Shown here: positions 205-4,042 of the stretch, piece by piece | How the letters are laid out: every line of letters begins with the position of its first letter | How positions within the stretch are numbered: the first letter of the stretch is position 1 | From: Actinomycetota bacterium | GTDB taxonomy: Bacteria > Actinomycetota > Actinomycetes > Mycobacteriales > Pseudonocardiaceae | Direction: 5' to 3' | DNA length: 64,000 bases | NCBI GenBank assembly: GCA_021324675.1 | Contig: JAJPIR010000238.1 | Coordinates: 1 to 64,000 of the forward strand | The notes under the pieces: model-generated | Seen by the model: only the letters and a program-made list of their open reading frames with translations | What the model was told of the DNA's origin: nothing | Databases searched by the model: none | Translations under genes and position numbers: made by a program

Positions 205-366
205 CCTCGTTCGGTGAGGCGTCTGTGCGGACATAGGCCACTGACCCTCCGGCGTCGAGAGACGTCCCGGGTCAGGACAGGTCTCCCCGGCCTAAGGGGT
301 GACCCCAAGTGGCTTCCTACCCGTCAGGGTTGGGGTACGCCGTGCAGTGCCAAAGCTCTGACGAGG
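205..366 (+). ncRNA. M-box (ykoK) Mg2+ riboswitch aptamer
   Basis: The stretch carries the conserved blocks of the M-box leader in order: GGTGAGGC (213-220), GGACATA near 229, GCCACTG (237-243), GTC..AGACG (254-265), GGGTCA near 279, AGTGGCT (308-314), and GTGCAGTGC followed by AAAGCTCT (342-359). The closing helix P1 is formed by CCTCGT (205-210) and ACGAGG (361-366), which are perfectly complementary. M-boxes (Rfam RF00380) fold on Mg2+ and switch off Mg2+ transport genes. Here the next genes are a 60-aa ORF, a NRAMP-fold transporter and an MgtE-N/CBS protein, so the regulated cargo is almost certainly Mg2+ uptake. A covariance-model search would settle the exact boundaries. Confidence 0.88.
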
Positions 367-617
367 GGGTGCCTGAACTCATCGCGCCGGTGGTTGGCGC
401 CGGGTATCCGCGCTGCGCCTGAAGGTATGGCACCCGCGTGTGCCCTGGCAGCGAGGAGGTGGTGGGGCATGGAGCCTGGCAGTAGTTGCTTGTGGCCCTG
501 TTCGGTGTTCCTCGACGCACCCACCCTGATTCCGCTGCCGGCTACCCGGTAGGCGGATGCGTATCGGGCTGCGTCGGGCTGATCCCTCCACCTGTGCTGG
601 TGGGTTGGGAGGCTGCC
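367..617 (+). promoter_or_regulatory. expression platform of the M-box leader, with possible SD-sequestering hairpin
   Basis: About 250 bases of leader separate the aptamer from the first start codon. I see no U-run that would make a classic intrinsic terminator. Just before the start, CCCTCC (584-589) can pair with the Shine-Dalgarno GGGAGG (607-612), helped by CCACC (588-592) with GGTGG (599-603), so translational control by masking the ribosome site is plausible. The pairing is read by eye and has not been folded by program. Confidence 0.45.
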
Positions 618-800
618 ATGTCGATCACGATCACAATTCCTGGTCTTGACCGGCCGGCCGGCGCCGGTCGTGCCCTGCGCGATCTGCTACCTCTCGCGGG
701 CAGTGCGCTGCTAGTCCTCGCCGAGGAGTTCATCCCCGGCGTGGGGATTGCCGTTGGCGTGACCAAGCTGCTCGGGCTGCGGGTTGAGGTGGGCCCATGA
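618..800 (+). CDS. small hydrophobic 60-aa protein, first gene of the Mg2+ operon
   Basis: The ATG at 618 follows a good ribosome site (GGGAGG, 607-612). The 60-residue product begins MSITITIPGLDRP and has one hydrophobic stretch (about residues 22-52, LLPLAGSALLVLAEE then GVGIAVGVTKLLGL) that could be one membrane helix or a hairpin. Its TGA overlaps the start of the transporter gene in an ATGA (797-800), so the two are probably translationally coupled. I do not recognise a family. It could be a small accessory subunit of the transporter or only a coupling leader ORF. Good ribosome site, codon bias and the exact overlap support translation. Confidence 0.65.
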   Translation: MSITITIPGLDRPAGAGRALRDLLPLAGSALLVLAEEFIPGVGIAVGVTKLLGLRVEVGP

Positions 801-2473
801 GCACCAACGTCCCGGCGACGCGGACGCCGGGACGTGCGGGGCAGGATCACAGTGCGGTGCTGGATGAGGCTCACCTCGGGGATATCCAGGGCGCGTTGGG
901 CACCATCCGCCACGACGATCAAACGCCCCAGACCAGTCTGCCGGCCCGGCTGAAAACCCTGGTGGCGATCGTGGGCCCGGGTCTGATCGTGATGGTCGGG
1001 GACAATGACGCCGGGGCGTTCAGCACCTACACCCAGGCGGGGCAGAACTACGGCACCCGATTGTTGTGGACATTGCTGTTGCTCATCCCGGTGTTGTATG
1101 TCAATCAAGAAATGGTGGTGCGTCTCGGCGCGGTAACCGGGGTGGGACATGCCCGGTTGATCCTGGAACGCTTTGGCCGGTTCTGGGGCGCGTTCAGCGT
1201 GATCGATTTGTTTTTGCTCAACGCGCTGACCATTATCACCGAATTCATCGGGATCAGCCTCGGCCTGTCCTACCTGGGGCTACCTAAAGTGCCCGGGGTG
1301 CTGCTGGCCGCGACAGTGGTCATCGCCGCAGCATCGACGGGCAGCTTCCGCCGCTTCGAGCAGGTGTGCCTGACATTGGTGGCTGGGTCGCTGTTGCTGG
1401 TGCCGATCGTGGTGATGGTTCACCCGCCGCTGGGTCAGGTCGCCCACGACCTCGTGGTACCTGGCATGCCAGGTGGTGCGCAGCTGTCCACGGTGATGCT
1501 GCTCATCATCGCGATTGTCGGAACGACGGTTGCACCATGGCAGTTGTTTTTCCAGCAGTCTTATATCATCGACAAGCGGATCACCCCCCGGTTTATCGGT
1601 TACGAGAAAGTCGACCTGTGGATCGGGATCGTCATTGTTGTCGTCGGGGCTGCCGCGATGATGGCTTTCACTGATGCCGCATTCGTGGGGCATCCGGAGT
1701 TCGGGCAGTTCTCCGACGCTGGCGGGGTCGCCGCCGGTCTGGGTCGCTACGTCAATTACGTCGCTGGTGTGCTGTTCTCCCTGGCATTGATCGACGCCAG
1801 CATCATCGGCGCCGCCGCGGTGAGCCTGGCGACGGCGTATGCGATCGGGGATGTGTTGGGGTTGCGGCACTCGCTGCACCGCCGCCCTCGTGAGGCTGCG
1901 GGATTTTATCTGGTGTTCGCGGGGCTGTTGGTCCTCGCGGCGATCATTGTGGTTGTTCCAGGGAGCCCGCTGGGGCTGCTGACCGAAGGGGTACAAACCC
2001 TCGCCGGAGTGTTGTTGCCGTCAGCGACGGTGTTTCTGCTGTTGCTGTGCAACGACCGTCAAGTGCTCGGGCCGTGGGTCAACAGCCCGAGGATGAATGT
2101 CTTCACCTCGGTGGTGATCGCGATGTTGGTGATGCTGTCGATCGTGCTCACCGCCGCGGTGGTCTTCCCCGGGATCACCAGCACGGCAATCCTGACCATC
2201 TTGAGTGTGGGCACCGGCTTGACCATGCTGGCCGGTATCTGCCTGGCTGTGCGCCGCCGGGCAGATGCCGGCCACGTCGACCAGATCGAGACCCCGGCAG
2301 CGGCGGACCCCCAGGCACGCGCCGGGTGGCGGATGCCCCCGCTGGTGCTGCTGACGCGACCGCAGCTCAGTACCGGCCGCCGTCTTGGACTGGCCGTGCT
2401 GCGCGGTTACTTGGTCATCGCCGTGGGAATGGTGATCGTCCGGGTGGCACAGCTCGCCCTGGCCGGCCGCTAA
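797..2473 (+). CDS. NRAMP-family transporter with Mg2+-type (NRMT-like) metal site
   Basis: A 558-aa integral membrane protein with a cytoplasmic N-terminal tail of about 50 residues and roughly 11-12 hydrophobic helices. The first helix has the NRAMP frame VGPGLIVMVGDNDAGAF. The canonical D-P-G-N becomes D71-A72-G73-A74, and helix 6 has T-V-A246-P-W where metal-selective members have a methionine before the proline. Loss of the Asn and the Met, which give Mn/Fe selectivity, is the pattern I recall for NRAMP-related Mg2+ transporters. Gene context agrees: the M-box riboswitch upstream and the MgtE-N/CBS protein downstream. The start overlaps the 60-aa gene. The role as Mg2+ importer is inferred; membership of the NRAMP fold is clear. 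Confidence 0.88.
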   Translation: MSTNVPATRTPGRAGQDHSAVLDEAHLGDIQGALGTIRHDDQTPQTSLPARLKTLVAIVGPGLIVMVGDNDAGAFSTYTQAGQNYGTRLLWTLLLLIPVLYVNQEMVVRLGAVTGVGHARLILERFGRFWGAFSVIDLFLLNALTIITEFIGISLGLSYLGLPKVPGVLLAATVVIAAASTGSFRRFEQVCLTLVAGSLLLVPIVVMVHPPLGQVAHDLVVPGMPGGAQLSTVMLLIIAIVGTTVAPWQLFFQQSYIIDKRITPRFIGYEKVDLWIGIVIVVVGAAAMMAFTDAAFVGHPEFGQFSDAGGVAAGLGRYVNYVAGVLFSLALIDASIIGAAAVSLATAYAIGDVLGLRHSLHRRPREAAGFYLVFAGLLVLAAIIVVVPGSPLGLLTEGVQTLAGVLLPSATVFLLLLCNDRQVLGPWVNSPRMNVFTSVVIAMLVMLSIVLTAAVVFPGITSTAILTILSVGTGLTMLAGICLAVRRRADAGHVDQIETPAAADPQARAGWRMPPLVLLTRPQLSTGRRLGLAVLRGYLVIAVGMVIVRVAQLALAGR

Positions 2474-2566
2474 CTGGATCCAGAGTTACTGCCCTGACCG
2501 GCTGGGTGCGCCAGGATGGTGCCCAAGCCGGTAACCGTAGTGTTTCCGGGGAAAGGGACCTTGATC

Positions 2567-4042
2567 ATGACGTCCCCCCAGGACCCAACAAACACCACCG
2601 TGCCTGAACTTTCCGGGTCGAATCAGGGCTCGGGACCTGCCCACTCTGCGCACCCAACTGAGCGGGCAGATCAGACGCTGCCGTTGTCACAGCTGCTGCG
2701 CCGGGTTGTCGTAGGAGCCCGGGGGGAGAAACTGGGTGGCCGGGTGGTCGATGTGATCGTCCGGCTGCGCGGTACTGACTACCCACGGGTCACTGGGTTG
2801 GTGGCCGAGCTGGGTGGCCGGCGGGTGTTCGTGCCTGCCGACATGGTCACCGGCTGGAACACCGAACAGGTGTCACTATCCACCCCGCGGGTAGACCTAC
2901 GTGCCTTCGAACGCCGCGAGGGTGAGGTATTGCTGCGCGCGGACATCCTCGGCCACCGGCTGATCGACATCCCCCGGGCCCGGCTGGTGCGGGCCTACGA
3001 CCTGCAACTGGCTCGCACGCCGGCGGGATGGGTACTGGCCGGAGTGGACACCCGCCCCACCAGCTGGTGGCGTAGCCTGCTCCGCCTGGCCGCTCCGGAC
3101 TCCGACCATCCAGGTGCCGACGATCGGGACGAGGCAGGGGCCCACGGATGCCGGGACTGGAAGGCCTTCGAAGCGCTCATCGGTCACCAGCCCACAGTGT
3201 TGATCCGGCGCCCTGGCGGGCGACTGCGCCGGCTCAAGGCGCCACAGCTCGCCGACCTGCTGGAACAAGCTTCTCGCGAGGAGCAGACCGAGCTGCTCGA
3301 TCAGGTCCACGCTGATCCTGAGCTGGAAGCCGACGTGTTCGAAGAGCTCGACGACGATCGCCAATCCCGGCTACTTCGGGACCGAAGCGACAAGGACGTC
3401 GCTGCCGTGTTAGCCCGGATGCGCGCCGACGCCGCCGCCGACGCCATCGCCGACCTGCCCCAGCAACGCCGCAAACCGGTACTGGACCTGCTGCCCCCCG
3501 GGCAGCGCACCAAAGTGACCGCGCTGCTGGGCTACAACCCCACCAGCGCCGGTGGCCTGATGGGCCTGGACTACCTCGCCGTGCCCCATGACACCCCGGT
3601 CGCCGCCACCTTGGAGCGGGTCCGTACCGCACGCACCTTGCAATCTGAAGCCCTCACCACCATCTTCGGCCTGGATCAACACCGGCGGCTGCGCGGTGCG
3701 ACCAGCCTGGTCACCCTGGTGCAGGCCGACCCACGCGCCCAGCTGCAGGACATCGCCGACACCGATCCCGTCCGCGTGCACCCCGATGCCGACCTGACCC
3801 ACGTAACGCTGCTGATGACCGATTACAACCTGCTCAACCTGCCCGTCGTCGACGACGACGACCAGCTGCTCGGGGTGATCACCGTCGATGATGTCCTGGA
3901 ATCCACCGTGCCGCGCAACTGGCGTCGCCGCGAACCCACTCCCCACCCAGGCACACCGGATGACCACAACCAGGCAGTGCCGCCTGACCCGCGCACCGCG
4001 GCCACACCCCGGCGTCCCGCAGCCAGTCGACGTCAGGATTGA
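2567..4042 (+). CDS. soluble PRC-barrel / MgtE-N / CBS-domain protein (Mg2+ sensor-like, no channel)
   Basis: The 491-aa start at 2567 has the ribosome site GGGGAAAGGGA (2548-2558); an ATG 17 codons earlier lacks one. After about 40 polar residues come PRC-barrel-like repeats (about 40-165, EKLGGRVVDVIV and GWVLAGVDTRP), an MgtE N-domain superhelix (about 215-335, many short LLDQ/LLP helices and YNPTSAGGLM), then paired CBS motifs (about 338-455, ending DQLLGVITVDDVLES). In MgtE these N and CBS domains sense Mg2+ and gate the channel. Here the transmembrane domain is missing and the protein ends in a Pro/Arg-rich tail. It follows the NRAMP-like transporter by 93 bp, so it probably regulates that protein in trans. 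Confidence 0.85.
   Translation: MTSPQDPTNTTVPELSGSNQGSGPAHSAHPTERADQTLPLSQLLRRVVVGARGEKLGGRVVDVIVRLRGTDYPRVTGLVAELGGRRVFVPADMVTGWNTEQVSLSTPRVDLRAFERREGEVLLRADILGHRLIDIPRARLVRAYDLQLARTPAGWVLAGVDTRPTSWWRSLLRLAAPDSDHPGADDRDEAGAHGCRDWKAFEALIGHQPTVLIRRPGGRLRRLKAPQLADLLEQASREEQTELLDQVHADPELEADVFEELDDDRQSRLLRDRSDKDVAAVLARMRADAAADAIADLPQQRRKPVLDLLPPGQRTKVTALLGYNPTSAGGLMGLDYLAVPHDTPVAATLERVRTARTLQSEALTTIFGLDQHRRLRGATSLVTLVQADPRAQLQDIADTDPVRVHPDADLTHVTLLMTDYNLLNLPVVDDDDQLLGVITVDDVLESTVPRNWRRREPTPHPGTPDDHNQAVPPDPRTAATPRRPAASRRQD

Follow-up and report, generated by a model that had tools for sequence, protein, structure and literature searches.

An actinobacterial operon joining an M-box riboswitch, an NRMT-like carrier and a soluble MgtE-type sensor

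Gene content of the operon

The window, the whole stretch of 64,000 nucleotides analysed here, begins at the start of its contig in an actinobacterial genome of 5.6 Mb (364 contigs, 95% complete). Close to this end, all on the + strand, lie the aptamer of an M-box Mg2+ riboswitch of the ykoK type, a leader of some 240 nt, a small ORF (orf60, 618..800), the gene of an NRMT-like carrier (797..2473) and that of a soluble MgtE-like protein, hereafter called the sensor (2567..4042). The end of orf60 and the start of the carrier gene share an ATGA at 797-800, the overlap through which the original prediction had coupled a 60-aa ORF to the carrier. The sensor is 491 aa long if translation starts at ATG 2567, and 508 aa if it starts at the in-frame ATG 2516; the 93-bp gap claimed ahead of the third gene therefore holds for the first start, the second being also possible.

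The genome contains two copies of the M-box, carrier and sensor arrangement, plus a third M-box. At that third locus (L047, 5985-8254 of G000:C130), the M-box is followed by a 52-aa ORF and by a long ORF truncated where the contig ends. The long ORF has no match in Pfam or NCBIfam, and we suspect that it encodes a CtpI-like P-type ATPase. No MgtE channel domain (PF01769) was detected in the whole of this 95% complete genome, in which one CorA was found.

The M-box leader carries two putative upstream ORFs

The aptamer was recovered by cmscan as a full-length match to RF00380 (199-375, model positions 1-169; 130.7 bits against a gathering threshold of 44, E 4.2e-29), the sole Rfam match in the window. 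The covariance search thus upheld the M-box that had been read from the letters ahead of the operon, and moved the start of the best element from 205 to 199. The layout that follows is that of the M. tuberculosis pe20 M-box, for which D'Halluin et al. 2026 (PMC12810186) described a first Shine-Dalgarno sequence (SD1) at the aptamer end with a GTG-initiated uORF1, and a second one (SD2) with a conserved uORF2 (Rv1805A), and demonstrated a translational platform with Rho-dependent termination. In the window, SD1 (GAGGGGG, 363..369) lies in the 3' strand of the aptamer P1 helix according to the cmscan structure line, at the position of its M. tuberculosis namesake, and is followed by a putative uORF1 with a GTG start and 17 codons (369..422, VPELIAPVVGAGYPRCA), the analogue of the poorly conserved mycobacterial uORF1. 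SD2 (GAGGAGG, 453..459) precedes a putative uORF2 of 27 codons (469..552, ATG at 469, MEPGSSCLWPCSVFLDAPTLIPLPATR), the positional equivalent of Rv1805A. As in the M. tuberculosis pe20 and rv1535 leaders (PMC12810186; NCBIfam NF040652), a further small ORF lies downstream, here orf60; the genes beyond it differ from those of M. tuberculosis.

The uORF2 peptide has been called mycobacteria-specific (PMC12810186). We collected 72 actinobacterial M-box leaders with a DNA profile and searched each, 40-130 nt downstream of the aptamer, for a start led by GGAGG, applying no peptide criteria. Such a start was present in 60 of the 72, whereas base-shuffled leaders gave 2.9 on average and 5 at most; kinship among the leaders inflates these counts. 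Peptides of at most 40 residues are encoded by 56 of these starts, and a [GS][DSH][SND] motif occurs within residues 2-8 of 39 predicted uORF2s but in none from the shuffles or from a downstream control stretch. Position 7 is most often occupied by proline, in line with the published consensus, but not in the window copy. Leaders of this type span Pseudonocardiaceae, Streptomycetaceae and Micrococcales. Contrary to the published statement, the predicted uORF2 behind M-boxes is therefore not specific to mycobacteria. By contrast, the pairing of anti-SD sequences with SD1 and SD2 was predicted, over 60 leaders, to be no stronger than in shuffled leaders, so that the anti-SD part of the mechanism finds no support here. 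M-boxes are rare in the window's family (8 of 249 genomes) and more frequent in a second family of the order, which its PE/PPE-like and Rv1535-type ORFs lead us to regard as Mycobacteriaceae.

orf60 looks like a coding, M-box-linked small ORF

Between the genome's two copies, orf60 gave a dN/dS of 0.42 in its own frame and of 1.09 and 1.48 in the other frames, all from small counts. Two further species of the genus have homologues with 46-49% identity, located behind M-boxes and with no carrier downstream (L079, 4698-4875; L080, 3373-3555). No match to orf60 was obtained in Pfam, NCBIfam or plasmids, nor among 296 other genomes of the class. A low-confidence structural model contains one long helix of 25 residues and a shorter one. 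Other M-boxes, too, have small ORFs comparably far downstream (213-317 nt), among them the mycobacterial Rv1535 family, whose NCBI model is named Mbox_reg_Rv1535; profile comparison revealed no similarity between orf60 and this family. Thus, orf60 looks coding and would be a genus-level small protein linked to M-boxes, sometimes in the absence of any carrier, for which an accessory role is plausible. At L079, the M-box and orf60 homologue are followed by a gene of the glutamate-cysteine ligase family (GCS2).

The carrier belongs to a long NRMT-like subclade with a DxxA-TxxA site

The carrier (558 aa) matches Pfam Nramp with an E value of 2.1e-79, and the solved chain closest to it is that of the Mg2+ transporter EleNRMT (7qia, phmmer E 9e-52; next chain 4e-16). 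On a tree it stands apart from MntH, with EleNRMT on its side, the joining branches being long and weakly supported. Aligned to EleNRMT, the metal site reads D71-A-G-A74 in helix 1 and T243-T-V-A246-P-W248 in helix 6, with neither Met nor His, and E149 falls on the helix-3 Glu133 of EleNRMT. The description of the carrier as an NRAMP fold with changed metal-site residues is confirmed by these data.

The published NRMT signature is DxxG-TxxA/T (PMC8806188). The carrier shares with EleNRMT the fold, the helix-6 TxxA, the Trp in place of the first His, the conserved helix-3 Glu and the lack of Met, but differs by a helix-1 DxxA instead of DxxG, by a longer C-terminus and by its distance in sequence. 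It is about 120 aa longer and has two more hydrophobic segments, the long carriers counting some 13 such segments against 11 in EleNRMT. Since one of the four signature positions differs, we call the carrier NRMT-like rather than a strict NRMT. The position of the DxxG glycine is Ala in 95 and Gly in 8 of 103 long carriers, and an N-terminal motif, AHxGDIxGAxGTI, is common to 79 of the 103. As judged from these alignments, the carrier is a member of a long subclade with a DxxA-TxxA site in place of DxxG. Its ion specificity we infer to be for Mg2+.

The sensor retains acidic residues at the MgtE sites Mg4, Mg6 and Mg7 and lacks the channel

In the sensor, Pfam recognized MgtE_N (E 1.4e-19) and CBS (E 3.9e-12) above their cut-offs, and no PF01769 channel domain. 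A PRC match fell just under its cut-off (20.7 against 21.2 bits). Hydrophobic stretches are all too short for a membrane helix (mean KD over 19 residues at most 0.98), and MgtE cytosolic domains ranked first in both the PDB sequence search and Foldseek. The predicted model (mean pLDDT 74.5, disordered termini) comprises an N-terminal beta part at the place of the PRC match, an MgtE_N superhelix and a CBS pair, with no membrane part. Of the PRC-barrel, MgtE-N and CBS architecture without a channel that had been claimed, the last three elements are thus clear, while the PRC region is slightly below the sequence cut-off and appears as a beta region in the model.

The gating residues of MgtE are D91/D247 (Mg4), D226/D250 (Mg5), D95 (Mg6) and E59 (Mg7), and Mg5 links the CBS domain with the plug helix of the partner subunit (PMC5882242). 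With the residue offset verified by I84 and I242, the equivalents in the window sensor are D305/D459 (Mg4), N438/E462 (Mg5), D309 (Mg6) and D273 (Mg7). MgtE positions 59, 91 and 95 are Asp in all 30 sensors from carrier loci, and position 247 is Asp in all 29 that have a residue there; at the Mg5 pair, Asn occurs in 26 of 29 and Glu in 23 of 29. Compared with the cytosolic domain of MgtE (2yvy, 2zy9, 2oux), the sensor therefore shares the MgtE_N superhelix and the CBS pair and keeps the Mg4 and Mg6 aspartates, with Glu changed to Asp at Mg7, but it has neither plug helix nor pore, its Mg5 pair is altered to N/E, and a PRC-type N-terminal part is added. On alignment, the acidic residues of Mg4, Mg6 and Mg7 are hence kept. 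Because Mg5 bridges to the plug helix in MgtE, its loss would fit a plug-less protein.

Soluble PRC/MgtE-N/CBS homologues are present in 98 of 120 genomes of the family. The one inspected, from the window's own genome (L064, 4882-6156 of G000:C359), is carrier-free, has Asp at both Mg5 positions and acidic residues at all six MgtE Mg-site positions, and adjoins a DUF1003-like protein, mrp and a tatB-like gene, as named from reading the sequence.

Riboswitch and sensor recur separately beside the carrier

Recurrence was assessed in 80 loci obtained by a GTDB scan with the carrier alignment. In 17 of them the carrier is immediately followed by the sensor gene, which lies upstream in 1 and beside a second carrier in 3 more, in several actinobacterial orders and in Sphingomonadales; chance would produce far fewer than one such pair, as estimated from one or two such genes per genome. 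Pairs were found in Leifsonia, Cellulomonas, Sinomonas, Dactylosporangium, Actinomycetospora, Acidimicrobiales and two Sphingomonadales records, so that the NRAMP/MgtE-N pairing extends far beyond close relatives; its absence there would have counted against the original prediction. Of the 80 loci, 23 have an M-box ahead of the carrier, and 7 carry both M-box and sensor. A cmscan of nine proteobacterial carrier loci and of one actinobacterial locus detected no M-box. L137, the single record with both an M-box and a Proteobacteria label, is probably misbinned, as its close partner is an Actinomycetes MAG from the same sample.

A quick carrier tree, with SH-aLRT support only, required at least 14 changes for the M-box and at least 12 for the sensor; a few absences are uncertain because some contigs end near the carrier. 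No sign of coupled evolution of M-box and sensor was seen in the few independent pairs on this tree. The window's genus and family show the same patchwork, with both elements, the M-box only or the sensor only. Taken together, the reconstructed changes indicate that riboswitch and sensor are gained and lost separately, and since both come and go independently of the carrier, neither is obligatory.

The carrier also occurs on plasmids of Arthrobacter, Cellulomonas, Methylobacterium and Burkholderiaceae. Proteobacterial relatives on plasmids (L204, L205, L206) lie near CDF or DmeF exporters, metal/formaldehyde-type repressors or transposases, with no sensor gene, and a link with metal stress is possible. 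Two more distant, short carriers of about 31% identity in the same genus and family (L069, G002:C7; L068, G020:C652) have the sensor gene upstream.

Discussion

The arrangement in the window, an NRAMP-related gene adjoining a gene for an MgtE-cytosolic-like protein under an M-box, corresponds to a unit already reported. Mg2+ transport by NrmT and its M-box control, as well as operons of M-box, nrmT and an MgtE-N fragment, were described by Shin et al. 2014 (PMC4072509), who proposed feedback gating; the NRMT structure (PMC8806188) and the translational M-box with Rho termination (PMC12810186) followed in other studies. The original prediction that this unit was undescribed is thus wrong, the same feedback proposal included. 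Its name for the unit, a split Mg2+ transporter, is misleading, as the C. acetobutylicum NrmTs transported Mg2+ without an MgtE-like protein (PMC4072509) and a separate soluble MgtE-N/CBS protein exists in nearly every genome of the family. The operons of Shin et al. were named mostly from Clostridia and Deltaproteobacteria and have the sensor gene upstream, as in L069 and L068, whereas the window is actinobacterial, places carrier before sensor, has a sensor with a PRC-type N-terminal part and a CBS pair, and adds the 60-aa ORF and a leader with uORFs. Our analysis adds this form of the unit from Actinobacteria, the finding that RNA and protein sensors are inherited separately, residue evidence on the sensor, a subclade of long carriers with DxxA, and a broader distribution of the ORFs in M-box leaders.

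We consider it reasonably probable that the locus is a Mg2+-repressed Mg2+-uptake operon, in which an M-box switch controls an NRMT-like Mg2+ carrier and a soluble sensor most likely throttles that carrier. At high cytosolic Mg2+, the aptamer would close the P1 helix and hide SD1, and expression of the leader ORFs and of the operon would drop, probably through blocked translation and Rho-dependent termination as for the M. tuberculosis pe20 M-box. At low Mg2+, uORF2, orf60, carrier and sensor would be produced and the carrier would import Mg2+. The PRC/MgtE-N/CBS protein would bind Mg2+ between its N and CBS domains, like the MgtE gate, and most likely throttle the carrier once Mg2+ recovers. 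The double control at RNA and protein level that had been proposed fits the data in its anatomy and as an idea; the operation of the switch in this species, a direct contact between sensor and carrier, and regulation through it, are what we infer.

The carrier could instead import mainly Mn2+ or another divalent ion, the M-box merely turning it on in Mg2+ shortage. In the work of Shin et al. 2014 (PMC4072509), a mutant in Mn2+ uptake was rescued by the NrmT of A. capsulatum, and the site has Ala where NRMTs have Gly. A mycobacterial M-box group called Mn2+-type precedes annotated manganese transporters, and the plasmid-borne proteobacterial relatives adjoin CDF and DmeF exporters. However, the carrier lacks both a soft Met ligand and the His pair of the proton path, its nearest solved structure is that of a Mg2+ transporter, the other carriers of these genomes bear typical MntH sites (DPGN, MPH), and M-box control has been argued to mark Mg2+ specificity (PMC4072509); we regard import of mainly another ion as quite improbable. 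The sensor may act elsewhere, for example on a different transporter or in general sensing of Mg2+ or nucleotides, and only be co-expressed with the carrier. Its near-universal presence in the family, the carrier-free homologue at L064 and the many carriers without a sensor partner speak for this, as does the one co-expression test of Shin et al. 2014 (PMC4072509), the sole published test of this kind, which gave no gain and hence no support for feedback gating. On the other side, the carrier-linked form is set apart by its N/E change at the Mg5 site, and it directly adjoins the carrier repeatedly in distant genomes. Action elsewhere is thus unlikely in our view, and throttling of the carrier is the reading that we retain.

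For orf60, a role as a mere leader peptide for translational coupling, rather than as a working small protein, has more to commend it. The overlap with the carrier start is ATGA here and GTGA in the paralogue, and in relatives lacking orf60 the carrier begins about where orf60 begins here, at nearly equal distance from the aptamer. Against this, the low dN/dS is confined to its own frame and its homologues occur behind M-boxes with no carrier downstream, so that we lean towards a working small protein, while giving the leader peptide serious weight.

A broader reading, which we put forward tentatively, is that the carrier and its two sensors, RNA and protein, make up a kit of exchangeable parts. 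The MgtE gate would have been freed from its channel, lost the plug-coupling Mg5 site and come to gate an unrelated carrier in trans; the carrier subclade would be a distinct long NRMT-like type with a DxxA-TxxA site, and actinobacterial M-box leaders would carry conserved small proteins (uORF2, orf60) acting in Mg2+ homeostasis. The retention of Mg4, Mg6 and Mg7 with a changed Mg5 in the carrier-linked form yields a specific, testable prediction about the way in which a channel gate would have come to act in trans. Since carriers occur with both sensors, one or none, the respective genomes provide natural comparisons between feedback by RNA and by protein, and the leader result would carry the mechanism reported for mycobacteria over to Actinobacteria generally. 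M-boxes themselves can be clustered, several lying within a few kb at L200 (959-3885) and L151 (2776-5659); at L200, a partial M-box is followed by a C-terminal piece of a carrier, an arrangement that suggests tandem duplication and decay.
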